The notes beneath the pieces are model-generated. The model saw only the letters and a program-made list of their open reading frames with translations, was not told where the DNA came from and searched no databases. A DNA stretch of 64,000 bases from Muricea muricata (lineage: Eukaryota > Cnidaria > Anthozoa > Malacalcyonacea > Plexauridae): NCBI GenBank assembly GCA_963855995.1, contig OY979716.1, forward strand, positions 86,816,250 through 86,880,249, given 5' to 3'. Shown in pieces: positions 7,541 to 56,000 of this stretch. Position 1 is the first letter of the stretch, and each line of letters opens with the position of its first letter. A program made the translations under genes and the position numbers.

Positions 7541-8698
7541 TTAGCAAACAAAGCAACGCTTTGAATCACGCAAAAGTTTGAATCGTGCCTCTCTATCTAT
7601 GACCTTTTCGCAGGATGCAGAATAATGTAATTCATTGCAGAATGCACATTTAATCTTAAATTTACCAGCTCCGTCCTTGTCATCCCCAGTCACAATGAAG
7701 GACCCCACAGTTGGAACTGTGGTTTGTTTGGGTTTGTTGGTCTTCTCATTTACATTTGAACGTTCTATTTTGCTCATCTCTGGTGCCTCGATTTCAGACT
7801 TTATAGTTTTGAGGAAATCATTGATTTGCCAGACATCATTTGTTGCCTTGCGGGCTATTTGCAACCTAATTTCGCTCGGCAATTTGGTCATAATGACCAG
7901 TATTAATAAACTGCCATACTGTTCAGCAGCAATTCCCAGTGATGCTAGTCCACGTACATGCACGCTTATTTTATCAAAAACAAATATTAACTGCCCTGTT
8001 TGACCTTTGGGACATGCTGAAATTTGCAGGATTTGGTCCATATGTGCAGCTATAATTTGCTGTGTTTTGCCAAATCTTTCTTGTAGAATTTCTTTTGCTG
8101 CATCATAATTGGCAGATGTCAATGTTAGTCCCTTAATTGAGTGTGCAGCATTCCCCTTGAGTAAGGAGAAAAGATAATTTAACTTGTTTACCTTGGACAT
8201 GTTGGCATTGCTGTGAATTGCAGTATTACATAAATCCCAAAAGGAACTTCATTCAGTAACTTTGCCACTAAACTTTGGAAGTTCAAGTATAGGCAATTTT
8301 GGCAATGTCAAACGGTGATGGCCCAGAATTAGATGGGGCACTCGTAATCGGTATATTGGTGTTCATATCATTACGACTGACATGACCTGACTTGTATTAT
8401 CGTTGCTCACAGTGTTTACATTATCACTTGACGCACTAATTTCATGTATATTTGACGATAGATTACCTGTATTTTCGTCTTTATTCAGACTAATTTCGAC
8501 TTGAGATTCAACGCTGACAGTCGATGATGCTGCCACGCTAACGTTTGCTGTATTTTGTGCTTTCTTCGCAGCTTCAATTTTACTTTTGGTGTTCAAAATT
8601 CTGTCTGTAACAAGGGCTGTTTCCTCGATTTTGCCCCCAATTTCACTCGCTTCGCAAACAACAAGAATTTTCTCGTTTATATTGTTAAGAATGTTCAT
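7541..8698 (-). pseudogene. BEL/Pao gag (DUF1759 type) with zinc knuckle
   Basis: Capsid-like protein that would coat the element RNA. The ATG at 8696-8698 opens a charged N-terminal coiled segment (KILVVCEASEIGGKIEE, ILNTKSKIEAAKK). After a stop near 8360 the text continues in another frame as LPILELPKFSGKVTE and SFWDLCNTAIHSNANMSKVN, then NYLFSLLKGNAAHSIKGLTL and LQERFGKTQQI, the DUF1759 signature. The end has CAFCNELHYSASC and RCFVC, zinc-knuckle-like cysteines. Length and order are those of a full BEL gag; one or two frame breaks between 8200 and 8363 disable it. Confidence 0.8.
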
Positions 8699-13539: not shown

Positions 13540-15301
13540 CTATATGATAGTCCAGAAAACAGTTTTTCCCTCCCTCAAACATAGGCAAATGTTACATTTG
13601 CTACAAAAGATTTTTGAAAATCCATTTTTGCAAAAACGACATCGACTGTGATCATTTGTTGGTTTTGGCCAATGTCCTACCTGATCATATTGGGGATCTT
13701 TTGATGGTAATGGGGTGGTGGGTTTGCAACCGACCTTGGCTGATGAACCTTCATTTGATGAACCTTCTCCATTACCAGATTTCCTCTTGCTTGGACTGCC
13801 TGGTTTTCCAGTAAATGTTTCCATTGGCACTTCTTTGTTGGCTGTGATCAAACACTCAGCAATTTCCAAAGCAAAGTCCAGTGAAGACAACCTTTGTTTT
13901 TCAGGAATACCTAATTGATCACAATGCCCGCAGTAGAGGAGCCAGGCATTCACTTTTGCCATGTCGACTAGGTGCCAAAATATCTTGATATACCATCTCC
14001 TTGTCTTGATCTTCATTCGATACAAGGAGATGAGCATATCAGCCAAGTCGACACCACCCATCCCCTTGTTGTACTGTAGGACCAGCTGTGGACATTGGAT
14101 GTTTTTCTTCTTTTGATCTTTTTGAGACCACCTTTCAACTATACCCATTGGCTTCACACCAACATAGTTGGAAGCGATATGCACAGCATTATTATCAAAC
14201 CATTTGACAATAATTACTCCAAACTCAGTATCAGACTTGCAGACCATGGTGCCGCATCCAGCTTTCTGCATAGCCTTGTTGGATTGTAATGGGCATCCTT
14301 AAATATGGTTGGTGCGCACTGTACCACATGCTAATATGCCTTTGTTCTTCAGGTAAATTAGCAGGTTCAATGTGGTGAACCAATTGTCAAAGAACAATTT
14401 ATGTCCTTTGTGTGATGGCAAATGTTGACAGAGTTGGGCAACAACTTGGGCAGATTTCTGGAGGTCACTGTAATCTGCATTTGGCACAGTTCCACTCTTG
14501 CCAGCATAAATATAAAAGTCATACATCAAACCAGAAACATCAGCACGCACTAAATTTTTGAAGCCAAATTTTGTCGGCTTTTTAGAGTTGAACTGACGAA
14601 TGCCACTGAACTTGGTCTTTGCAGGGATAATTTGTTCGTCGATGGAATTGGCTCTCTTCAAGGCTGACCTTCATGCACTGTTCCCGAACAATGTCAATGA
14701 TAGGTTGTATTTTGGCAAGCTTTGGGGCATTTTCTTCCAAACGATTGTCATCCACAAAGTGAAGATTTGAACGTAAATTTTCAAATCGTTTCAGAGGCAT
14801 TTGGTTTGTTATGGCAGGGTACCTTAACTACTGTGACCAGTATAACTTATATGATGGAAGCCTTATGATACCCATCTTGATGTGCATGCCAATAAATTTT
14901 TCTATTTTATTGGTTGAAGTGTTTATTGACGTACCTGATTTCTGTGTGCTGTAGAGGTTAGACTGCTCTACAACGAGGTCATGGATCTCATCTGGCCAAA
15001 ACTGCTTAAAATATTCAAGTGGTGACTTGGTCTCTTCGATGTCATTTTCTACTTGCTCATACGTTGAATCTGCTGGCATCATGTCTCTCTTTCTCCATCG
15101 AAATGTTTTCTTCTTGTTTGATTGGCTTTTTGGATTTGCACTGCCACCATTTTCACTGGAAGAATTATCATCACTAATACTATCACCGTCCGTATGTTTA
15201 GTATCACTGTTGACTATGTCACCACCATAGTCATTGTGTTCAACATCTACGCTTTCCTCGCCAGAGCTAAGATATTCCAACTCAGAATCATTACCATTCA
15301 A
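13540..15301 (-). pseudogene. piggyBac transposase (DDE_Tnp_1_7), nearly full length
   Basis: TTAA-specific cut-and-paste transposase. From the ATG at 15301: an acidic N-terminus, then SPLEYFKQFWPDEIHDLVV and IGMHIKMGIIRLPSYKLYW, an in-frame TAG near 14826, MPLKRFENLRSNLHFVDDN, a frameshift near 14650-14690, and the catalytic region. The aspartates are in SIDEQIIPAKTK, KLFFDNWFTT and YNKGMGGVDLAD, all three retained. A TAA (about 14297) interrupts between NHI and GCPLQSNKAMQKAGC. The C-terminal cysteine-rich zinc domain (CRFCKNGFSKIFCSKCN, LCLREG) is present. One frameshift and two stops make it inactive, but it is otherwise complete. TTAA-flanked ends were not found. Confidence 0.88.
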
Positions 15302-19802: not shown

Positions 19803-20858
19803 ATGCGAATGTCTCCTGAGAGATTGGAACACCTGTTGAATCTGATTGGCCCCTACATGAAAACAAGAACATGTCGCAGCAGAGCGCCAATTTCCATCAA
19901 AGAAAGACTCGTGCTTACTTTAAGATACCTTGCCACTGGTGATTCACAGCAATCTCAATCCTTCAATTTTAGAATAGGCCGAAGTACAGTATGTGTAATT
20001 ACTAGAGAAATGTCTGCTGTTATGTGGGAAGCCCTAAATAATATATACTTGAACTTTCCTAAAACACAGGAAGACTTTAAGAAAGCGGCTGAAGAGTTCC
20101 AGCAAGAATGGGGTTTTCCTCATTGCATGGGAGCTGTTGATGGGACGAACGTTTGATCGACTGTCCCAAAAAGGTTCAAGGAGGTTCCTTGTTTTACAAT
20201 TACAAAAATTTCCATAGTACAGTACTGATGGCAATTTGTGATGCCAAACAACGATTTATCAATTTTTTCCCAAACTGATATTTGTAAAGGAATAGAGAAT
20301 GGGATTTTCCCAATTCCCACTTTTTCTTTGATTAATGGTTTCATGTTGCCATATGTGTTTACTGGAGATGACATTTTTCCACTTAAGAACTGGTTGATGA
20401 AACCATTTCCTGGGAAAGGATTGACTGAGAAGCAGGCTGTCTACAACTACAGGTTATCAAGATGTAGATGTACTATAGAAAACACATTTGGAATCTTAGC
20501 AGCTAGGTGGAGGATTTTCAGAGGACCAATACGCGCAGATGTCACAACTGTTGACCACATTGTTCAGGCAACAATTTACTTGCATAACTACCTGGCTTTA
20601 ACCCACAATGCTCGTTACATACCACAGGGTTTTGTGGATAGCGAGGATCGATCTGGAAATTTAGTTTGTGGTGAATGGCGACAGATTATTCATTCCGATG
20701 AAAATTCCCTCCAAGCACTAGGGAGAATAGGTAGCAACACCTATTCATTTACAGCAAAATCAGTTAGAGAAAACTTTTGTGAATACTTCAATAGCAATGA
20801 AGGCTCACTACCATGGCAACTCAATTATGTTAGATATAGTGGGAGGAAATCTATTTAA
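19803..20858 (+). pseudogene. Harbinger transposase (HARBI1/DDE_Tnp_4)
   Basis: Nuclease of the PIF/Harbinger family. 19803-20156 carries the N-terminal helical part (MSPERLEHLLNLIGPYM, SIKERLVLTLRYLATGDSQQ, FRIGRSTVCVITREM) and the first catalytic Asp in HCMGAVDGTNV, followed by TGA. After a frame change, FYNYKNFHSTVLMAICDA is readable. A small deletion precedes NNDLSIFSQTDICKGIENG, which holds the second Asp. 20238-20858 continues PYVFTGDDIFPLKNWLMKPF, LTEKQAVYNYRLSRCRCTIE with the catalytic Glu in TIENTFGILAARW, and ATIYLHNYLAL. All three acidic residues can be located but not in one frame, so it is inactive. Confidence 0.88.
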
Positions 20859-25092: not shown

Positions 25093-26226
25093 CTGGAAAA
25101 ATGGAAAAGGTGGGAGAAAGTAAAAATCTAATGTACTGGCCTGGTTACATTGAACTTATTGCGTTGCTTACTTGTCTCCGAGCCAACAGCCCTAACAGGG
25201 TGGCTGCCAAGTAGCTTGAGTTGGGAGTGGGGTGTTAAACTTACCTAAAAGCTAACATTTACTCTTAATTATATTTTCCGAATAACCAAGACCTTACTGA
25301 CTTTGCTCATCGAAGTCTGTATTTTTAATGTTTCCTCAAGTGATTTTGCAAAACAAACTGATGAGCGGACGATGCTCACAATTTTGGGCCGGTTGTCACC
25401 ATGGTTGGCGCCAGGTAAGAAAACTTTTGGAAGTGAAGTCCCTGTATCGTGAAATGACTTTTTTTAAGTCTTTCGATCAAACCAATGTACATGGCTCAGA
25501 TTGACTGTTTGTAAAAAAAGGGTTATATTTAATGCCGGATTCGAACCCAAGTGCAATGCATACAGCACGCGCCTAACCCTCTGGGCTAGTTGCGACCCCG
25601 CTTTATGAGATCACTGCTTGTATATATTTTAGTGTCATTTTAAGGTGGCTCCCTATGGTTTTGGTTGTGTAGAACACAACATGTTCAAAAGTTCATTATT
25701 TTCTCATTTTGCAAAGTGCAATCACAAAATTCGGCCACATAACTGCTGAAATATCGCGATTTACTAAAAATATAATATATCATTAAATATCTCTGTTGCC
25801 ATGGTAACAAAGTGATTTTAAAAATGGTCTTTTTGTACATATTTTAATACATTTTCGAACTTCTCTTTGGTAAAAATTTCTAATCTTTTACACACATTAA
25901 TTTTATAATTAATTCATTCAAATTATAGTATTTTAAAAAAAATCGTATGAGCATTTCTTTTCTAATCGCCAAAAAGATCTGTTTTGGGAATAGAAAAAAA
26001 TCGGCTTGTACGCTTTTTTTAAAACTTACTCATGTTACACACTTCGAGATTACAAGAAAGTGTGCAGTTTTAAAAAAATTTACCGAAGGAAACACGAGAA
26101 AAATGCATTTACTTTTTATGTATGTGACATCACAATAATCAGGATTTCAACTTCCTCGTGGGACAAACCAACAATCCCGCGCAGGATTTCGCGTGCATGT
26201 TTTTGGTTTAACTTAAAGAGATTAAG
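25093..26226. other. Intron of the MULE-like gene, left part
   Basis: Non-coding, from the splice acceptor at 25093 to the left end of the inserted 7.6-kb element. It contains the tRNA-like sequence at 25532-25601. No other motif was seen. Confidence 0.5.
25532..25601 (-). other. tRNA-like sequence, SINE-type
   Basis: On the minus strand, AACTAGCCCAGAGGGTTAGG resembles box A and GGGTTCGAATCC is a good box B, spaced as in a tRNA. The acceptor ends do not pair, so this is a tRNA-derived SINE head or tRNA pseudogene. Confidence 0.5.
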
Positions 26227-26480
26227 TACGGTGGCCCACAGGTGTCACGGCACAAACAAGAACCTCACGGCACAAACGAAAACGTCACGGCACAAACGAA
26301 AACGTCACGGCACAAACGAAAACGTCACAGCACAAACAAGAACGGCACAAACAAAAGCTTCACGGCACAAACAAGAACCTCACGGCACAAAAACATCACG
26401 GCACAAACTAAAAGTCCACGCCACAAAACAAGAACTCCACGGCACAAAACAAAACTTCATGGCACAAGAGCAAGACATTC
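26227..26480. repeat. Left terminal inverted repeat and subterminal array
   Basis: After the terminal TACGGTGGCCCACAGGTG come about eleven units of a roughly 22-bp repeat, TCACGGCACAAACAAGAACC with variants (GAAAACG, AAAAGCT, AACAT); units decay inward. The array is the inverted counterpart of 33545-33855. The open frames read across it are repeat translations. Confidence 0.9.
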
Positions 26481-26550
26481 TACACTTCAGATGTGAATGG
26501 CGTTGTCTGTATATATAGATCAGTGTTTACAGACAATATTCATGCACAAC

Positions 26551-29500
26551 ATGGCCGACAAATTTTGTACGAATTGTGGCGCTTAGCTTCTCCTAGAAGA
26601 TAAATTCTGTGGAAGATGTGGAAGTGGTGAGTCAATTTTAAAATTTGCTAATAGGCCACATCGTACATGAACGTATCGCATCTATGTACCCCAGTTTTAC
26701 ACTGGAAAATTCAAACCTCTTGTAACATGCTATAGTCATGGAAATATATTTCTCAAATTAATAATTCATGATCAGAACACAAAGAAAATCACCACTATAT
26801 CGTTGTCTTCATACCACGGTAATTAACTTCCATAAATGAACTCAAGTTATTCAACTTTCTTGCCTAATTTTGGTAAATTCAAGTTTGTTTGAGAAGCATA
26901 ATAAACTCGAAAGTGTTTATATTACCAGCATACAAAACACCCCAAAGTGTGTAAAAAACGCGACTGGCGCCTTTTTTCATCACACTTTTCGGTGTTTTAT
27001 ACGCCCGTAATAAACGATTCCCATTTATTACTTGCTAGGGCACTGTGCCCAGGCAAGTATAGTTTTGGCTTTGTCGGATCTCCAATGGTCGTAGCCACAA
27101 AATTGAATACTAATGAGCTTTGCCAATTTTCACCCAATGTACATGCTTGTCTGCAATAAACAGCACAATATATGGCAATGAATGCATTTTTATGTGTGGA
27201 TAATGAATATTTTTATAATCAAGTCATGTGATCTAAAATGGGGAGTAATACAGTTATACTACAATATTTCACCTGGAAATATTGACTGGAAACTTATGCA
27301 AATTTTTGAATCAAAGCTGTTTGTAAAATTCGAAATATTTATTCAAAAATCTTGTGTGCATGAGCAACTGTGATTTTAATCATAGGCATACAGGCAAGGA
27401 AAATTTAGGGGGGAGGGCAAAGACTATTTTGCCCAAATGTTTGTTCTCCACAGTTTAGACTGTCTATAACTTTTTCCTATATTTAACGGGGGGGGGGGGG
27501 GGGGGTCTGGGGTCCTGGGAACATTTTGAAATTTTCACACCTACATAAAATGCCCTTTCCTGCATTCTCAATCACACATTTTCTACAAAATTCAGTTGTG
27601 AAGAACACAAATTTCACCTTGACCTACAAATTGCCCAAATACTTCAGTAGAAATTGTCTGAAAAACATCAATTTGTGTTGACATTGGGGGGGGGGCACTT
27701 GCCCCCTTTTTCCCCCATCTATGGTTTTAACTAAAGTTTTGGATCAACATGATTGAAATACACAAACTGTTATTTCACACCTAAAATGCCCTTTCCTGCA
27801 TTCTCAATCACACATATACAGTACAACAAAATTTAGTTGTGAAGAACACAAATTTCACCTTTACACACAAATTGCCTAAAATGGAAACGCCATTTTAAAT
27901 AAAGAATGGCGTCAATTTTTAACTGGCAAGCTATAGGAGCACGCATTCTATATCTGTTACACTGTATTTGTATGGTTATATGCATGTGTCCCGCGAATTT
28001 TAAAATTATGGACTATTCAAATGCAAGTCATTGTGCGAGACCTCAGATTTAATTAAAACAAGCTTTGCGAAAGACAGGTCACAGCACAGGCTGGCGACGG
28101 TATTGAAATGAAATATGGCAGTTCTACTTTGGCGATGACCGATAAATCCGAAAATTGCAAATCACTTCCTTGAAAATTCCCTCAAACGAAAACAGTTAAC
28201 TTTGTCTTTGACCCTACTAGGCACAACAGAGTGTCTTGTTCTATGTAAATTTGTATATTTTAAAGCGACTTTTTAGTGAGGTGGCTCCTAGAGTATTGCT
28301 GTTCAAATGAAACATTTTATCAGCTCATTGTTAAGGACTAAATTATAGCCTACAACTATACAAAGTCTTCTTGAAAGCATACAACATGAAAAACAATAAT
28401 AGATATATGTTGATAATCTAAAAACCTTTTGAGATTTATAGTTCAAACATTATTGCATTCCAGTGGTTGTGGTTGGTGTGTGTGATGGGGCAGGGGTCAT
28501 CTTTTTTAATGGAGAAAATAAAACAGGTCAATAAATGAAATTTTAAAAACGACTGCATTTTTTGGCACCAGTGCAAAAAATATTCAAAATATACTCCAAA
28601 ACTGATAAAACGCAGAAAAAGTAATTATTATAAGTAAATTTTATTACATTTTCAACCCAAATGGAAGATAAGTAGATAAGTTATTTACCATTAAGGTTGG
28701 ACTGTAATGAAAAATATAAACGACATATAAACATATAATATTTACATTACTTTTTAATAGTATTCCTATGCTACAGTTATTTGAGAGCTCAAGCTTGGCC
28801 TCTAAGAATCAAACAAAATAGTTGTTTTTGTTGCTTGAATTTCCTTTGCCTATCATTTTTATGGTGTTTTAGATTACATGTAGAAAGCATTATTATGTTA
28901 CATTCTACTTCTAATATCACTGGATCAACCTTTGAAATTTTTACAGTTAGCTAGGGTATAATGAATAAGAGGAATATTTTTTGGGTGGATGGGGAAAATA
29001 GTGATAATCGAGGTATCCTTAGAGAGAAATATCAAATAACACCACTGAAGAGAATTTGAAAATTAACCAGTAATAAATGCAAGTGGGGTTTAAAAATAGT
29101 TCTTTAGTTAAAATTATAGTTAATTAGAAATGCGTACACATGCTCCCTAAATATTTTAGAAAATTTGCTGTCTTTGAAATGCTATTTTTTCTTAAAATTA
29201 TTTTTACAATATCTTAACAGAAACATTGTGCTCAACCTCCAGTTCACCATGTACGAGTTCTAGCTCACCGTCAACCAGTTTCAGTGTTAATTCACCATCA
29301 ACCAACTCCAGTTTTAATTTACAGTCAACCAGCTCCAGTTTTAAAGACAGCGGAAAAAGTAAAAGCGGAAAAAGTAAAAGCGGGATAAAGTCGTTCAGCG
29401 AGTATAAAAAGTTCAAAGGATCTGAATGGAGTAGAAAAGTTAAAGTCAAACCAGTTGACAAAGCAAATGATGTAGTTATTTACATTTGTTTGATGCAGTG

Positions 29501-31241
29501 GAAAGAAGACGAATGTAAGTTAAAACCTGCTCGTGGTAAAAGAGTGGCTCTGAAAATATCGAACAAAGCACCATACGCAGAAGTACGGTTGATAGGAATT
29601 GAAAAGTGGAAGGCATATCATAGCAACAAATTTATTGAAGATGAAGAGTATTGTCTGACTTATCAAGATGGCCAAGAAGTTTTATTTTTACCCGGAACAA
29701 CCAAGTTTTTTTCTGCAAAGAGATACAGGGAGGAGAGTGGAAAGGATTACAAACGAATTACGTTATATTTATGCAGAAAAGATTATTTGAGGAGGAATGA
29801 GGACATCAGGTCATCAAAACCTCAAGTAGACCAGGATGAACTTATTGCCAGGGAGCTCCAACATCGATTCAACAATGAAAGTTGCGATAACGACAAAGTG
29901 AACATTGGTGAGGATCAAGAAGATGTGTTAATTATCTCAGGAGATGAGATATCAATGCAACTGCCTGATGAAAGTGATCAATCAAAAGAAGTCTTGTCCA
30001 ATGATGACCAAGGAAATACTGATCCAAAACAAACAAATAAAGAGAGTAATAGTTACCAAAGTGTTGTTGATCTTGTGGAAAACCTTGGGCGGCAAGTTGA
30101 TGAGTCCGATCAGTTCTTTTTCGTTATCAGGAGAAGAACTACATTAAAACGACAGCTGACGATCTGGCAACGCGAAGCAAGTAAGAAAAGTCCGAAGCAT
30201 CGAGTTAGGGTTCGTTTTACTGGAGAAAGTGGAATCGATAATGGAGCTCTCGCTAAGAAATTCTTCACATCTGTGGTAAGCGACATAGGAAAAAACATTT
30301 TCCCTAATGGTAGCCCCAAAGATTCCATGCTTAATGTGCACAACGGTACGTTCTACACGTGTGGAGAAATTGTTGCAAGTAGTATCGCTAATGGTGGACC
30401 CCCACCGTGTTTTCTCGAAGAGTGTGTTTACAACATGCTCGTTGAAGGTGATGTTGACACGAAAACTCTCGTTCCCGAAAATCATTTAACTACACATGAA
30501 CAAGAGGTACTCGAAGGCATAAAAAAGAATCCAACAGCTATGAGAGACGTGATCTTGGAACATGGCTATACGGGAAAGATTGACAACGATCATATTAACG
30601 ATGTCGTTGGTACAGTAATGATTAGCCTTGTCAGCAAACGATTACTTTACCTTAACGAGTTTAGGAAAGGCCTGGATCTTTTTGGATTACCAGCCCTGAT
30701 GCAAGCAAACAGTCTATTGTGCAAACAATTGTTTGTTACTGGACACGGAGGAAAAGCACCTGACGCAAATTATGTAGTATCTTGCTTAATACCAGGTTAT
30801 TCAGAAGCAGGAAGCTCTCGACGAGCAATCAAAGAAGAAATGGTTGATCACGTCCAAGATCTACTAATCAGCTTGGAAGACGAATGTGTCCTAGGTTACT
30901 CAGAAGATCTTGCATGGAATGATGGTGAAGATAGTATCCCAGGTACAGGAGATGACGATGAAAGAAGTTCATGCTATTCACCCGACCTTACACCAGCAGG
31001 CGTACTCAAGTGGTTAACTGGTCAAAAACATGTTCCAATCAATGGAGAGAATTTGAAAATTCAAGTTTACTTCGATCACGACTGTACGACTCGTAACAAT
31101 TTGCATACGATTTGTTTTCCAGTTGTGGGATCGTGCGGTAAAGATATAACATTGCCTGTCGAGCACATGAAAATATCTGAAGACTTCAAGCGTGTTTTTT
31201 TGCTTGCATTCTGCAAAGGTCAAACATTTGGGAGATCATAG
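26551..31241 (+). CDS. Zinc-ribbon plus HECT-type E3 ubiquitin ligase gene, two exons
   Basis: Proposed exon 1 (26551-26626) reads MADKFCTNCGA, a TAG, then LLLEDKFCGRCGS: two CxxC knuckles of a zinc ribbon. It ends at a strong donor, G/GTGAGT, phase 1. Exon 2 starts at 29221 after ATCTTAACAG and keeps that phase through to TAG at 31239-31241. Exon 2 has a Ser/Thr-rich linker (residues 1-45, counted from 29226), a conserved-looking domain (about 55-190: KRVALKISNKAPYAEVRLIG, DYKRITLYLCRKDY), an acidic linker, then a HECT domain (about 297-671: RVRFTGESGIDNGALAKKFF, ANGGPPPCFLEECVYNML). Near the end, GSCGKDITLPV has a Cys (about 637) at the place of the thioester cysteine. HECT ligases transfer ubiquitin from E2 to substrate. 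The TAG in exon 1 would silence this copy unless it is read through or another start is used. It resembles the G2E3-like HECT proteins abundant in cnidarians and fish. Confidence 0.75.
27381..27723. mobile_element. Possible hAT-type MITE in the HECT gene intron
   Basis: Ends CATAGGCATACAGGCAAGG (left) and, on the minus strand, CATAGATGGGGGAAAAAGGG (right) share CATAG and a G-rich inner part. Flanks ATTTTAAT and GTTTTAAC agree at 6 of 8 bases. About 90 bp of its interior (27535-27640) recurs as a direct copy at 27776-27882, outside the proposed right end, so the boundaries are uncertain. Confidence 0.35.
27884..29220. other. Intron of the zinc-ribbon/HECT gene, distal part
   Basis: AT-rich non-coding sequence up to the splice acceptor at 29219-29220. 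No open frame with a motif was seen. Confidence 0.5.
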
Positions 31242-32338
31242 TTCTGGACATATTCTTATATCTTCATTAATACTACAGTACTAAAAATACATTAAGTTTG
31301 AGTTTGTTAATCGCATTGTACGTCACATTAAGGTGTACGGACAAACACTTTGTTTTTATATAATTATGGTTATGTTACGTTTGATGGTTAAGGTTGAAAG
31401 CCCATCTACACAATGCGACAAGTCGAATACGATTCTTACCCTGGCGTATGTATTCAAGTAATTGCGTGTAAAGTTGCGACGTTTTAAATTTCGCTGTAAA
31501 TCGATCAACAGAAATAGTAACGTCAGCAGTTGTTTTCATACGTCAGAATGACAATCACATACGACATGTTGTATCGTGTAGGTGAAGCACTCATCCGAAC
31601 AATGTCATCCCCGAATGGATAGTCTACCAAAAGCACCATACATCATCTCGCTGTTTTTAGTTGGTATTTTCAGCCGAACTTTACTGTTGATTCACGTCAT
31701 CTTACACCATCCTGGTGTGTGAAATTTACACCCATAAAAATATCTGTGAACACATCAGATGACCAGAATGCTGTATGATGGCTTGAAATGACGTTATCCG
31801 CTTTGAAAAATTTAGGTTTGCCTGAAAATTTTTTTTGAATTTTTCTTACAACGTTTTTCGAACATTTTTTAAGCTATTTGCTGTGGAAACTTAAGAAAAA
31901 AACGTAAACACGCACCGGAAATAAAACTGTTGAAAATAAGTAATTGTCAAAACATAGTCCTGGGAATATTGACTTTTAATTAACGTGGCTTCCGCCGTGG
32001 ATGATAAAAGTTGTTTTCCAGTTGTATGTATGCGTTTTTTCACACGTGTACATATGCACATAAAAATCTAAACCATTTTAATATTAGCTATTGAACAACT
32101 ACATGAGTAAATGCGTGGAATTAAATACCTGGAATGATTTAGTATGTAAGTGTTAATGCACTTTTAAAATATGTTGAATACAAAAGGATTTGGACTTTCA
32201 TTTGCGTACACGTAAATGAAAAACAGCATTAATAATGTAAATCACTTTATTCCATAACTCGAGGAGTTTAGTCATTCAACACATTTGTTTTTGTTATATG
32301 TTGTTTGAGACCTTTTAGCAAAGATAAGGTGCCCACAT
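31242..32338. other. Spacer between convergent HECT and integrase genes
   Basis: AT-rich sequence between the HECT stop codon and the integrase stop codon, presumably both 3' untranslated regions. No coding motif was seen. Confidence 0.5.
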
Positions 32339-33490
32339 TCAGTTGGCATATTCCAGAAGAGTATTATAAAGATCAAGTGCCTCTGTCCAATCTGTCGGTT
32401 TGTTGAAATTGCAAGATTGTAGAACATAGTTAAAATACTCTTGATATAAGTTGTCTTCTTCAGTTTCCACAATGTGTGATCTCACATAGTTGATATCAGC
32501 CTCGGGGACTGGCAACAAGAAATGGTTAGCACCACCACTTAGCTCAGGTAGATAGTACAGGGCATCTGGTCGACCTCTAACTGTGTCATAACGAGACCCA
32601 CGGATATAATGTGTGTTCCACTCCTCTTTCACATCATCTAAAATCTGCTGAATTAGGTCTGAGAAACAGAACCAAAGACATTCCATGTGTAGTTCTGAAG
32701 CCATATCTAATACTCTTTGTTCACTTAGATCTTTGAAGAAATTTATCCACCATGTTGAACAAGACTTTCTAAATAACCCCCACCATGCTTCAATTCGTTG
32801 ATTTCTAGGCGATGGAACGTAACGGTGACTGTCAGCATCGTCCCTGAAAAAAGCTTGAGCGGCCGCTATTATTCCATTTTCAGTTCCTAAGTCTGTAATT
32901 AAATCGATAGGGCACCCACCAAATTCCTCAACAGCATCGAGGTAAAAGGCGGCTATATTGTCTGGGCGGTTGTTTGATCGAGTGACATACAGCCAAAGAA
33001 CCTTCCGGCTCCAACCGTCTATACATCCATGGATTGGAAATCCGTACGGCTTTAATTTATCATAACCATCACAGTGCCATGTGTGGTTTGGACCCGGATT
33101 TCTGTATTCTCTTCTTTTCAGACGATGTGCTCTCCTTTGTTCTGTTCCCTCAGGGTCAATTTCTCTTAGCAATTCTTGCACAACAACGCGTGGTACTTGT
33201 ATTCCTTTCAACCGTAGGGCGTGCCATACTGACCTATAACCATACAGACTACCATGACCATTAACGATACCGATAATAGCTTCTCTCACCTGAGCAATAT
33301 CATATTCAACTTGTTTCCTTCGCAGACCGTAGCTTTTTATTCGCCTTTTCAATGTGCTAATACTTATTTCCGTCGCATGATTTTTTTGTAAAAACCTACG
33401 AATTTTTTCGTAACTAAAACCCCTGAAAAAATAGTATCGTATAATATCCTCCTCGTTGAACTGTTCTACGTCTACCTGGTCGTCAGCCAT
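32339..33490 (-). CDS. Integrase-type DDE transposase (rva_4/IS3EU-like), intact
   Basis: Transposase of the 26227-33862 element; it should bind the inverted ends and catalyse excision and insertion in the nucleus. One uninterrupted frame of 383 codons begins at the ATG at 33488-33490 (context AAAATGG, favourable). Residues about 14-60 form a helix-turn-helix (DIIRYYFFRGFSYEKIRRFL, ISISTLKRRIKSYGLRRK). The catalytic core is the integrase fold: first Asp in TWHCDGYDKLKPYG (D141), second in DLITDLGTENG (D200), Glu in PRNQRIEAWWGLF (E234). The C-terminal region (240-383) is typical of these eukaryotic proteins, not of retroviral integrases. All three acidic residues are present with no stop or frameshift, making this the only apparently intact transposase gene in the window. 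The subterminal array starts about 50 bp upstream of its start and could act in its promoter. Confidence 0.92.
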   Translation of the reverse strand: MADDQVDVEQFNEEDIIRYYFFRGFSYEKIRRFLQKNHATEISISTLKRRIKSYGLRRKQVEYDIAQVREAIIGIVNGHGSLYGYRSVWHALRLKGIQVPRVVVQELLREIDPEGTEQRRAHRLKRREYRNPGPNHTWHCDGYDKLKPYGFPIHGCIDGWSRKVLWLYVTRSNNRPDNIAAFYLDAVEEFGGCPIDLITDLGTENGIIAAAQAFFRDDADSHRYVPSPRNQRIEAWWGLFRKSCSTWWINFFKDLSEQRVLDMASELHMECLWFCFSDLIQQILDDVKEEWNTHYIRGSRYDTVRGRPDALYYLPELSGGANHFLLPVPEADINYVRSHIVETEEDNLYQEYFNYVLQSCNFNKPTDWTEALDLYNTLLEYAN

Positions 33491-33544
33491 TTTGAATTAA
33501 CTCCAAATTTTTCAAACTAGTTTCCAGTCTTTACCCTTTGACTA

Positions 33545-33862
33545 TTCTTGTGTCGTGGACTTTTAGTTTGCGTTTGTTTGTGCCGTGAGGTTCTTGTTTG
33601 TGCCGCGAAGCTTTTGTTTGTGCCGTGAGGTTCTTGTTTGTGCCGTGAAGCTTTTGTTTGTGCCGTGACGTTCTTGTTTGTGCCGTGAAGCTTTTGTTTG
33701 TGCCGTGACGTTTTTGTGCCGTGAGGTTCTTGTTTGTGCCGTGAAGCTTTTGTTTGTGCCGTGAGGTTCTTGTTTGTGCCGTGACGTTCTTGTTTGTGCC
33801 GTGACGTTCTTGTTTGTGCTGTGAGGTTCTTGTTTGTGCCGTGACACCTGTGGGCCACCGTA
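33545..33862. repeat. Right terminal inverted repeat and subterminal array
   Basis: Inverted counterpart of the left array: about fourteen units of a roughly 22-bp repeat (TTTGTGCCGTGACGTTCTTG with AAGCTT and AGGTTC variants) ending in CACCTGTGGGCCACCGTA at 33862. Units near the tip are best conserved. It lies upstream of the transposase gene. Confidence 0.9.
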
Positions 33863-33868
33863 ATTAAG

Positions 33869-42543: not shown

Positions 42544-44825
42544 AATATTATTATTATTATTATTACAAAAACTTATATAGCGCTTATAGCACATAGATCT
42601 AAGCGCTTTACAATCATTAACTAAAAAAATATATTACAGCAATAACAATACTGATAAAATATTAAAAGATTGAAAACCAAGTCACAAGAAACCCAAGTCA
42701 CTAAAAAATGTTACTTCACATTATAGGCTATGTCAAACAAATGCGTCTTAAGTTTACTCTTAAATTCTGAGAGATTTATACATGCTCTAAGAGAGAAGGG
42801 TAGCTTATTCCATAGTCTGGGACTACTAACAGAAAAGGCTCTCCCACCATAACTATTTACACTAAATCTAGGCTCATTAAGTAGAGAAGCGTTAGAAGAT
42901 CTAAGACACCTTGAAGGTTTATAATAGCTAATCATATCCGCTATGTACTGCGGAGCTAGTCCATTCAATGCTTTAAACGTGACCAAAATGATCTTATAAA
43001 CAATGCGCTCTTCTATTGGAAGCCAATGCAACTGCATTAGAACAGGTGTGATATGATCATATTTATGTGATCCTGTTAACAATCTTGCTGCAGTGTTTAA
43101 AACTCATTCTAACTTTGCAATCTGTTCTTTAGGGAGACCATATAATAAAGCATTGTTATTATCCAGTTTAACAGTCACAAAAGCATGGACAAGTTGCTCG
43201 GTAGTATGAAATGACAAATATCTTCTAACACGGGCAATATTTTGTAGGTGATAAAATGCTGACTTACATACATTATCAATTTGTGTAGACATCGTGAGAA
43301 ATTTATCAAATGTATCACCAATGTTCCGAACACGAGAAGATGGAGTGACTGTATCCAAGCCCACATTCAGAACTGGGAATATAGGTTCAGTCCGAAATTT
43401 TGAACTCAAAATGAGAAGTTTCGTCTGCTCAGGGTTAAGCTTAAGTTTGTTGTCTGTCATCCAGTTCATAATTTCAGTCAAACAGGCTTCTATATGCACC
43501 TTAACGCTCTCAAAATCAATCTGTTTTTGGTATTTGAAAGAGACATAAATCTGTGTATCATCAGCATATAGATGAAAATTCATCTTATGCGATCGTAAGA
43601 TGTCTCCTATCGGTGAAGTATATATCAAGTATAAGAAAGGACCTAAAACCGATGCTTGAGGAACGCCACAGCCTACGTCATAAACTATCTGATGTGGTAC
43701 CATTGATATATACGACTTGAGAGCGCTCAGACAAGTAAGATTTAAACCAATTTAATGCATCCCCCTTAATACAAAATCTAGAGGACATTCTTTGGAGCAG
43801 TATCGCGTGGTCAACCGTGTCGAATGCAGCTGATAGATCTAATAGTAACAATACTACAGCCGAATTTCCATCTATTTCACGTAGAATATCATTCTGTAAA
43901 CGAATAAGAGCTGTTTTGCAACTGTGAAATTGTTTGTAAGCAGATTGATAAAGTTCTTCAAGACCATTACATCGAAAATAATCCAACAAGCGTATAGCAA
44001 CGACTCTTGATCATTTGGAAATGAACTTCAGATTAGAAATTGGACGAAAATTGGAAAATTTTTCATAATCCGTAGCAGAATTTTTAAGAGTCGGATGTAG
44101 GACAGCTTTTTTTAAGGATAATGGAACATAACTAGTTTCCAAAGATAAATTAGTAATATCTACAATAATTGGTAAAATGATATCAATTTGGGCAGAGAGC
44201 ACCTTCGCTGGTATAGGATCCAATTGGCAAGACTTCAGTTTAGACTTTTCCAGGATATTAGATAATTCTTCAATTGTCGTGGGAGTGAAGTTATCCAGAC
44301 AACAAGTCAAATCTGGATTATCTAACTGAGAAAAAACAAGGTATTGCTTGAAGATGAAGAGTACAATCCATCTTTAATCTTATAGATCTTATGATTAAAG
44401 AAGTATGCAAATTGATTTGCTAATTTCGAAGAAGAATCAGAGGCAGGATATACCTTCGCAGGTTTCCTTTGTAGGAAACGATTAACAGTTTGGAAAAGTC
44501 GTCTGCTGTCAGTACCAACCTCTTGAACAATTGATGAATAGTATTCCATTCTTACTTTGCAAATTGCATTTTTGACATTCATACACTGATTAACATATGC
44601 CTGCTTATCAATCTGCAAGCCACTCTTGCGCCATCTCTGTTCTTTACGCTGCCGCAAACTTTTCTGCTCTCTAATATCCTCATTATACCATGGAGCCACA
44701 GGTCGAATCAGTATAGTTTTTGCACAAAGCGGAGCATGTGTCTCTAATAACCCTGATAATACCAAATCATACTGGTCACAACATTCGTCAAGAGTGGATT
44801 TAGGTGAAGTATACAATTCAGAGCT
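42544..44825 (-). mobile_element. LINE 2 (CR1/L2 group), 5'-truncated
   Basis: Non-LTR retrotransposon reading on the minus strand. From 44816: [146 protein letters not shown] with the catalytic [21 protein letters not shown], and PVLMQLHWLPIEERIVYKII, FSVSSPRLWNKLPFSLR. The 3' end has TAGCGCTTATAGC complementarity and a (TAA)n tail at 42543-42562, as in this group. The endonuclease half is missing. Only about two frameshifts are visible, so this copy is younger than LINEs 1 and 3. Confidence 0.88.
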
Positions 44826-53071: not shown

Positions 53072-56000
53072 GCAGCTCGTCTTGCTCGATCATGCAAGGC
53101 TCCCTCTGAGTTCCTCTCCATTCCCACCCGGTTTTTTCTTCCTTGCAACCTTAACTTTAGCTCCTCTAACTTCCTTGTCTCTACCTACGATTAGCTCCTC
53201 TACGATCGCAACTTTCCAATTACCTCATTGATCTCCTTCTCCATGCACTGTCACAACGTTTCCCTTTCTTAAAACCTTCCTTACATTTCCTGTTGTACAC
53301 TTGTGAAATTCTCTCAGTCCCATCAGATATTCTGCTTGCCATCTTTTCCAGTAATGTTGCAAGACTAGCGTAATGTATCTGTATCTCTGTCCAAAAGTAC
53401 CTTCCTGTTTTGCTCCCTGTCTTTCTGGTATAAAATTCATAGCTCTACCATAAATTAAGTGTAATGGTGTTAAGACCTCGCCTTCAAATTCCTCGTATTT
53501 CTCTGTCAAGGGCCTAGTGTTTAATGTACCTTCTACCTCTACTAAGACTGTCCTAAGCTCTTCAACTGTCAACTTTGCATTACCTAGAACTTTCCTAAAT
53601 CACATTTTTACACTCCGTACCATTCTTTCAAAGGAGCCACCCCACCAGGGCACTCTTTCTAGGTTGAATCGCCAAGTAACCCGCTTATTTTGCAATTCTG
53701 CCTTAATCTTTGGCTCATTAAACAAACGGGTGATCGCTCTTTCGGATGCCTTAAACGTTTTCGCATTATGAGACACTATTAGACATAAGAACGTCTCGGC
53801 TGACAGATCCCTGACTAATTCCAAATGCAGTGCTCTCGTCACACAACACGTGAATAGTGCTATATATACCTTTCTTGATGATTTTGAGCAACACTTAGCA
53901 AACAATGGACCTGCAAAATCAATCCCGACTTTGAAAAAGGGTGCAACCTCCCTGATTCGGAATTCCCGTAGATCCGCCACTTTTGTCACTTTACATGGTC
54001 TCCCTTCCAATTTTTTACAAACTACACACCTACTCAAGATTTTCTTTACCATTTGCCTCCCCTTCACAACCCAAAATTTTGTTCTTAGTCTGCTTAACGT
54101 CGCCCGTACCCCACCATGATGCACTTCCCTATGACACCTTTGAACAATTAACTCAGTTAACCTTTGGTTTTTGGGAATTAAAATGGGGTACTTTGCATTA
54201 TACTCTAAATCAGACTTTTGTAATCGCCCTCTACACCTCAAAATACCTTCTTCTAACAATCCTAAACTGTTACTAAACTGACTGAATTTTTCGTCTACTT
54301 TCAACCCTGTCTGTGCCTCTCTGATCCATAACCTTTCTGCTTCGTTTAGCTCTTCAACACTCAACTCTCCATTGCGTTTTTCAAGACTCTTCCTTCTAGT
54401 TTGCATATTAAATACAAATCTTAGTACCCAAGTTGTCACCCTAAAAAGTCATTCTACCGTTCCATACCTCTCTGAATTATTTACATTGCTTATACTCAAG
54501 TCAGGCAACTTAACCTCTACAAATGTAACTGCAGACTTCTTTTCCTCTTCTATGACAGGTGCAGCCTTGTCAGTGACCTTACTCTTTGGCCACCTATCTT
54601 GGGACTTAGCCAATTTGGCCCCACCCACCATAGTTGGTTATCCTTTAAATGGGAAGTGACAACACCCCTTGGACCCTATGTGTGCCGGGTTTTCAACACC
54701 GGGACAGTGACCCCAATCTCCCTTATTGGTTAGCCTTAAAATTTCATTTACTCGATGCAGGACAAATTGTTTCCACTCACCATGGTTCGTGATCCAGTAA
54801 AGTGCTGTCATACTATCAAGCCAATACTTTACACTGTCTACCTTAACAACATTTTTAAATGACTCTTTAACTGTTTGCATTGAGCAAGGAGTCTCGCAGA
54901 CATTAGCTCTAACCTTGGGATACTAGTTGGTTTTAGAGGGGCTACCCTTGCCTTTGACGTCAATAAACAGGCATAAATTCCTGTTCTGTCCGATAAACAA
55001 AATAAACTACAGCACAGTATGCTTTTTTACTTGCATCGCCAAATCCATCCAATGTACATTCTAGCACATTCTATACAGGGTGCTGATACACAAAACGTGG
55101 AGTTGTGATTTCACTTGATTTAATTAGCTCATTGCACCATGTCTCCCACTTCTTCTATATTTCCCCAGTGAATGTTTCATCCCAACCTATCTTCTCTCTA
55201 CAGACATTTTGAAACAATATTTTGGCATAAACTATTGCTGGAGAAACTATTCCTAGTGGGTCAAATAAACTTGGCAAAATGCTTTATAAATTTGTCTTAG
55301 TGGGTGCTAAAGTTTTCACCCTATCCCTTGTGTTTGAAAGGTTAAACTTTGTTTCATGTGTTTCATTATCCCAGGATTGACCTAACACTTTAGAGGTCTT
55401 TAAATCATGTTCTGTACTCCCTAAAGATAACTTGGCATGTGACTCATGATCATTAACAACATTGTCTCCATTCCCCTGGACTTTCTCATGCAAATCAATT
55501 TTTTCTTTCAGTTCCTTACTGTTAGTTACCCACTTCCTTAAATTAAACCCACCTTCAGCCATCCTACCCTTCGTCTTATCAAACAAGTCAAACGCTTTCT
55601 CTGTGTCACTCTCACCACCAACAAAATCATCCGCATAAAAACTCTCTAACACCTTTTGCACAAACTTAGGATCTATCTCTGTGAATTTTAAAACATGTCT
55701 CAATGTTGCATTAAGTAAAAATGGAGATACATTTAAACCAAAAACTACTCGACAAAACCTATAAACCAACGTTTCAGCATTCTCAACATCAATATTACTT
55801 ACCCATAAAAATCTCAGGCAGTCTCGGTCTGCCTCGTCAACCTCAACATTGAGAAATGCCTTCTCAATGTCACCTACAAGAGCAATTCTGTTTTCCCTGA
55901 ACCTTAACAAATACTGTAGAGTAGTGGATTAAGAGATGGCCCAACACGCAAACAATCGTTCAATAATGTTCCTGTTTTAGTTTCTTTAGATGAAGCATCA

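Follow-up and report, generated by a model that had tools for sequence, protein, structure and literature searches.

How does a gene for a HECT-type ubiquitin ligase come to lie between the ends of a DNA transposon, and what could it be doing there? The question is raised by a stretch of 64,000 nucleotides from Muricea muricata (contig OY979716.1 of assembly GCA_963855995.1; hereafter the window, in whose positions all coordinates are given), in which a transposase gene on the minus strand and a HECT gene on the plus strand converge between the ends of one element. We are highly confident that this element is a two-gene transposon, made of a transposase and a convergent HECT-type ligase gene. 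Indeed, its architecture, ends and target duplications, the recurrence of the pair, its convergent orientation and the conserved cysteine of the HECT product are all observed directly. Our explanation as a whole, in which the ligase is kept for the element and counteracts the host, seems to us moderately probable. The window element, a member of what we call family A, is laid out as follows.

26221-26226: left copy of the target-site duplication ATTAAG, perfect, 6 bp
26227-33862: whole element, a 7,636-bp DNA transposon
26227-26268, plus strand: left terminal inverted repeat, its 42 bp matching the right end exactly, beginning TACGGTGGCC
26245-26468, plus strand: left subterminal array of repeats of about 20 bp, candidate transposase-binding sites
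26510-26517, plus strand: TATA-like run, putative promoter element upstream of HECT exon 1, read by eye
26551-26626, plus strand: HECT exon 1, zinc ribbon with two CxxC pairs
26627-29220, plus strand: predicted HECT intron, GTGAGT...AG, whose acceptor AG ends at 29220, with the junction in frame
29221-31241, plus strand: HECT exon 2, 673 codons read from 29220, stop codon at 31239-31241
29460-29780, plus strand: conserved domain of predicted beta-grasp-like fold, exon-2 residues 81-187
29835-29861, plus strand: DELIARELQ motif in the acidic linker, the loose pattern being matched in 39 of 53 alignment rows
31134-31136, plus strand: codon of Cys639, the proposed catalytic cysteine, with the spacing C-x5-L-P
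33490-32342, minus strand: transposase, 383 codons, rva_4 integrase core with D141, D200 and E234, stop codon at 32339-32341
33557-33845, minus strand: right subterminal array, the same 20-bp repeats inverted
33821-33862, minus strand: right terminal inverted repeat, the exact 42-bp counterpart of the left end
33863-33868: right copy of the target-site duplication ATTAAG, perfect, 6 bp

A preliminary description of this DNA had already proposed the perfect ATTAAG duplication, which is confirmed on both sides, and an intact transposase with D141, D200 and E234. The latter also stands: the protein matches rva_4 with an E value of 3e-30, and among 25 aligned transposases, the window's included, no change is seen at D200 and E234, and D141 is conserved in at least 90%. 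The ends are identical, as had been said, but over 42 rather than 40 bp. Similarly, the convergent HECT exon lies where it had been placed, whereas its length is 673 rather than 671 codons, and the zinc-ribbon exon upstream of it had been missed.

Does the HECT gene travel with the element? Searching the 453-Mb assembly with the family-A ends gave two further complete copies, L009 and L010, and both carry HECT and transposase. No copy with the same ends that lacked the HECT gene, an outcome which would have told against the preliminary description, was found among the complete family-A copies, all three of which keep both genes. L009 has frame breaks in both of them, and in L010 the main HECT exon is missing its 5′ part. 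The one-ended terminal matches L011, L012 and L013 gave no match to the two family-A proteins and may be elements without HECT. L014, of which the fetched stretch includes one end, has both genes, its HECT and transposase being 41% and 51% identical to those of the window. A second family, B, whose HECT is 48% identical to the window HECT, comprises five HECT/transposase pairs with an identical spacing of 1,058 bp on three contigs. The HECT frames of four of its copies are 1-5 substitutions apart pairwise, and one of these frames, that of L022, is interrupted. In the family-B element read end to end (C4) the frames, stop to stop, are of 685 codons for HECT and 418 for the transposase. Altogether, both genes lie within perfect 6-bp duplications in all four elements read end to end (ATTAAG in the window, CAAGAC in L009, GTTAAG in L010 and CTTAAG in C4). 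This location inside complete elements, together with the fixed spacing in near-identical family-B copies, shows that HECT moves with the element. A one-off capture is rejected, as the pair recurs in diverged families.

In family B (L045 and L046), the arrays are accompanied by subterminal regions of about 600 bp that are inverted relative to each other and 95.6% alike, each with a zinc-ribbon-like frame. At G000:C1:50394543-50396329, a HECT that is 89-94% identical to that of the window lies more than 12 kb from any listed transposase, and may be nested, truncated or HECT-only. Finally, a 740-codon frame, perhaps of a nested element, lies between HECT exon and transposase at L050:1820-4039 on the minus strand.

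These elements have the characters of the IS3EU superfamily, defined in the accessible part of PMC10045372 by TA..TA termini, usually 6-bp target duplications and a DDE transposase resembling those of IS3 and IS481. The duplications are of 6 bp and perfect in each of the four complete elements, and the ends read TACGG..CCGTA in the window element, in L010 and in family B; in L009, one end starts with CACGG rather than TACGG. The transposase is a DDD/E enzyme related to prokaryotic IS3/IS481: that of the window matches IS3 with an E value of 1.7e-8 and IS481 with 4.7e-7, both far below the curated cut-offs, and its only other Pfam matches, HTH_21 and Clr5, are weak. From these sequence characters, the window element is an IS3EU-type (rva_4) DNA transposon, as the preliminary description had it on the strength of the 6-bp duplications and the rva_4-type integrase. 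We rejected an IS481EU identity, since the element shows 6-bp duplications and TACGG ends, and the same part of PMC10045372 gives IS481EU elements TNT..AYA ends and target duplications of some 4, 15 or 25 bp.

How general is the pairing in this genome? With the window HECT as sole query, 40 HECT loci were found; a transposase lay no more than 12 kb away at 28 of these, in convergent orientation at 27, for 0.22 expected by chance. We then extended the HECT queries to PF00632 and three other element HECTs, and the transposase query to PF24764. The transposase loci scored were the best 150 of 1177 rva_4 candidates and the best 107 of 1416 window-transposase candidates, a choice that favours good copies, and locus coordinates were transferred by hand from the search outputs for counting. 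As HECT types were added, the pairs within 5 kb rose from 87 HECT loci to 126 and then 137 of 255 transposase loci. In the final count (356 HECT loci), 134 of the 137 pairs are convergent, 2 divergent and 1 tandem. In 500 random circular shifts, for which the last listed match was taken as the contig end on most smaller contigs, the number of rva_4 loci with a HECT within 5 kb averaged 5.0 and never exceeded 13. Harbinger-type transposases (PF13359) served as a control, run on the 305-locus HECT list and not on the final 356: HECT was found within 3, 5 and 10 kb at 0, 1 and 5 of 150 loci, versus 123, 126 and 134 of 255 for rva_4 on the same list. The preliminary description had called the ligase a long-term passenger. 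Its long-term carriage is upheld, and the word passenger understates a gene that lies within 5 kb of over half of the listed rva_4 loci.

An early count, according to which most transposases lack HECT, was rejected as an effect of how far a single query reaches. The window HECT did not match L047, but PF00632 does, and the locus has convergent HECT exons. Such exons are also present in L049 and L050, which no genome search had matched when they were read, and in L051-L055, drawn from the 129 unmatched loci, so that all seven loci read after escaping the genome searches (L049-L055) carry convergent HECT exons. The best E values of local profiles for L051-L055 were 9e-14, 6e-20, 1.4e-15, 1.6e-11 and 2.4e-4, these five having been chosen, non-randomly, for long transposase frames and the weakest, L055, combining its profile E value of 2.4e-4 with the cysteine motif. 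In 86 kb of control sequence, with 939 reading frames, the same profiles found no match. Since L051-L055 carry HECT and yet are absent from the genome-search lists, 137 of 255 is probably a floor.

The product of the window gene is predicted to be a HECT-type ubiquitin ligase, the HECT and beta-grasp-like folds being read from sequence. Exon 2 encodes, in order, a basic segment, the beta-grasp-like domain, an acidic linker and the HECT N- and C-lobes. The DELIARELQ motif of the linker is one that we take to resemble an inverted ubiquitin-interacting motif (MIU). In an alignment of 53 sequences (the window HECT and 52 homologues), of which 26-48 rows cover each region, identity to the window averages 58% over the C-lobe, 49% over the N-lobe, 48.5% over the beta-grasp-like domain (43 rows) and 25% over the linker. 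The profile built from this alignment matches UBE3A (E 1e-4), Rsp5 (0.007) and HUWE1 (0.025) among the structures of PDB, and the L048 protein matches UBE3A with an E value of 2.4e-9, with aligned stretches in both lobes. Two C-lobe cysteines are candidates for catalysis. Position 639 is Cys in all 34 rows that have a residue there (19 of 53 are gapped) and Cys632 is Cys in 33 of 33 (20 gapped). The spacing C-x5-L-P, presumably the canonical one of HECT cysteines, points to Cys639, which we propose as the catalytic residue.

In the window copy the first exon is interrupted by an in-frame TAG at 26584-26586, and this copy of the HECT gene is probably dead as a consequence. The same exon is open in L009 and L010, which means that intact versions exist. 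A zinc ribbon is found in one frame in 6 of the 53 aligned rows. In family B (L045) and in L027, too, a zinc ribbon is followed by a splice donor. Zinc ribbons are seen without evident donor in L025, L028, L030, L033, L034 and L049, and the pattern had no match in L014, L047, L048 and L050-L054, bearing in mind that it is loose enough to give 7 matches in 56 kb of control sequence. Other N-termini occur as well: by eye, the HECT types at L047:2-604, L052:2591-3997 and L048:753-2750 have different zinc-finger-like and possible CUE-like segments. The HECT homologue P0204 matches Pfam PF02845, which we take to be the CUE domain.

Have the two genes been inherited together? The HECT and transposase distance matrices are correlated over nine pairs (Mantel rho 0.63, p 0.007), two of these pairs (P0123/P0008 and P0148/P0068) having been inferred from proteins on same-sized database contigs (240212 and 938784 bases). 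This fits long joint inheritance, and the two database contigs themselves suggest the same HECT-transposase linkage. Synonymous divergence (dS) between families A and B is saturated. We infer long-term constraint on HECT from the conservation of the cysteine and of the domains in homologues down to about 35% identity, an argument limited by the fact that database homologues are open frames by construction. Judged from these sequences, the ligase is a long-standing second gene of such elements here.

Several observations weigh against our explanation. The window HECT protein scores 18.9 bits against Pfam HECT, for a cut-off of 23.9, and is marginal by Pfam alone. L049 (20.2) and L050 (22.4) are also below the cut-off, L048 (64.0) and L047 (38.2) are above it, and 6 of the 53 alignment rows match Pfam HECT at E values up to 0.1. 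The motif C-x5-[LIFV]-[PA] is present in the HECT C-lobe at all 11 loci inspected, but the pattern was composed after the sequences had been read and also gave 3 unrelated matches. Among window-type HECT loci, 12 of 40 have no listed transposase within 12 kb and, conversely, 118 of 255 rva_4 loci, six of which were read, have no listed HECT within 5 kb. Moreover, all genome-wide evidence comes from one genome. Family C breaks the correlation of distances, being at 0.47 from family A in transposase and at 0.92 in HECT. This combination of a close transposase and a distant HECT implies that HECT diverges fast or was replaced. Finally, the ratio of nonsynonymous to synonymous change (dN/dS) within family A is 1.41, 0.68 and 1.31 for HECT, in three comparisons with 4-10 synonymous changes each, and 0.44 and 0.42 for the transposase. 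The comparison of copies that the preliminary description had called for has thus not revealed selection on HECT. Two of the copies compared are visibly damaged, and the absence of any sign of constraint is what is expected of decaying copies. Taken alone, it counts against a retained ligase.

What then is the ligase for? We consider it likely that it is retained for the element's benefit. In the mechanism that we envisage, the transposase would act on the shared ends and the subterminal arrays and so mobilise the ligase gene with the element; the ligase would be expressed from the end opposite the transposase, and would ubiquitinate a nuclear protein of the host by which transposition is restrained or the element silenced. 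This last, host-counteracting step is put forward tentatively. The ligase could instead control the element itself, by ubiquitinating the transposase and setting its level or timing, which would limit damage to the host. Many transposons limit their own transposase, and the recurrence of the two genes together, with distances that correlate over nine pairs, is as expected of interacting products. However, a HECT distance of 0.92 between families A and C, versus 0.47 for the transposase, looks more like the pursuit of a moving target than like a fixed partnership, and we regard self-control as unlikely. Equally, the role of the HECT protein could be structural: as an accessory to the transposition complex it might bind DNA or chromatin, possibly by means of the zinc ribbon, with ubiquitin transfer a secondary matter. 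Zinc-ribbon exons are indeed found in families A and B, in L049 and at other HECT loci, and the comparison with RAG2 comes to mind, since RAG1L/RAG2L transposons have two convergent genes, a transposase and its partner, in the accessible part of PMC7204232; their transposase is of another family and the partner is not a HECT ligase. The cysteine motif at 11 of 11 loci and Cys639 in 34 of 34 rows nevertheless point to a need for the activity, and the zinc-ribbon pattern is unmatched in L014, L047, L048 and L050-L054, which makes a mainly structural role quite improbable.

The remaining explanations deny the ligase any role in the element. A captured HECT gene might ride along neutrally, and both the family-A dN/dS of 0.68-1.41 and the exon-1 stop of the window copy would agree with this. 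Yet a neutral insert is expected to be lost, whereas more than half of the listed rva_4 loci have a HECT neighbour, and the cysteine is kept in distant homologues, with the reservation already made for open database frames; we hold neutral carriage to be very improbable. Alternatively, the HECT genes could be host genes beside which transposons merely insert. Some HECT matches, the strongest PF00632 matches, probably are host genes, and 177 of 305 HECT loci have no listed transposase within 5 kb. But the four complete elements, with HECT between their ends and duplications, contradict this explanation, as do the constant distance between the genes in near-identical copies from separate contigs and the convergent orientation of 134 of 137 neighbours. 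We give it almost no credence. For the window, we rejected an insertion close to a HECT gene of the host, since HECT is inside a complete element there as in the other copies.

Transposons with genes of the ubiquitin pathway have precedents. Mutator-like elements with OTU or ULP1 proteases are DNA transposons of this kind, whose proteases remove ubiquitin-like tags, whereas the window element bears a ligase gene. The IS3EU superfamily is itself already known; what appears to be new here is a HECT ligase gene as the second gene of IS3EU-type elements. The elements of PMC10045372 share with ours the 6-bp duplications, the TA..TA ends and the DDE transposase in the accessible part of that paper, and differ in that neither HECT nor ubiquitin occurs in that text (0 occurrences). 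A close parallel is in fungi. In the accessible part of PMC12730594, the rust-fungus IS3EU families with TET genes have 6-bp duplications and TAYGG..CCRTA ends, and TET+ IS3EU families have transposase and alpha-kinase genes in opposite orientations and a TET/JBP dioxygenase gene between them. They share with our element the duplications, similar ends and a gene for a protein-modifying enzyme opposite the transposase, and differ in that the enzyme is an alpha-kinase and not a HECT, a TET gene lies between, and they are fungal and not animal; HECT and ubiquitin are not mentioned in the accessible part of PMC12730594. The superfamily has therefore carried a protein-modifying enzyme in this layout before. 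Our literature search, which for most papers covered titles and abstract openings and took in neither Repbase nor most subscription journals, found no publication pairing HECT with IS3EU and no HECT-carrying transposon.

Relatives of both proteins exist in other anthozoans. Named HECT homologues are from Nematostella vectensis and Stylophora pistillata, with Paramuricea clavata for the L048 type, and named transposase homologues from Oculina patagonica, Xenia and Paramuricea clavata. The viral contigs scanned with the HECT and transposase alignments gave no relative. UBE3A (E6AP), the best match among solved structures, and the G2E3-like animal proteins share the HECT lobes with the window protein and differ in their N-terminal domains and with regard to the transposon location of the window gene. 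Four fish proteins (P0214-P0217) are weakly related to the L048 ligase (E 1e-11 to 1e-18), and one of them is named G2/M phase-specific E3 ubiquitin-protein ligase. An unclassified repeat element with a G2E3 match is recorded in Cottus fish in the accessible part of PMC5638112, and we found no publication linking the phase-specific ligase name with a transposable element. It is possible, though we offer this as speculation, that HECT is the standard second gene of a whole animal branch of IS3EU, kept to counter host control, and that much of the cnidarian, perhaps also of the fish, expansion of G2/M-phase-specific-E3-like genes consists of transposon genes.

The window also holds other mobile-element debris, with Pfam-type matches to DUF1759, DDE_Tnp_1_7, the Harbinger-type DDE_Tnp_4, reverse transcriptase (two matches) and an integrase zinc-binding domain at these six stretches.

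7544-8248, minus strand: mobile-element debris
13543-14298, minus strand: mobile-element debris
20229-20855, plus strand: mobile-element debris
43107-43751, minus strand: mobile-element debris
53603-54448, minus strand: mobile-element debris
55287-55928, minus strand: mobile-element debris

In conclusion, if our explanation is true, DNA transposons of eukaryotes would, with an E3 ligase of their own, gain direct access to host protein degradation. Many viruses have such access. The pairing at 137 of 255 loci implies that some of the HECT gene families in annotations may consist of transposon genes. Moreover, the families with several near-identical copies would offer a system for asking what a transposon-borne ligase targets.

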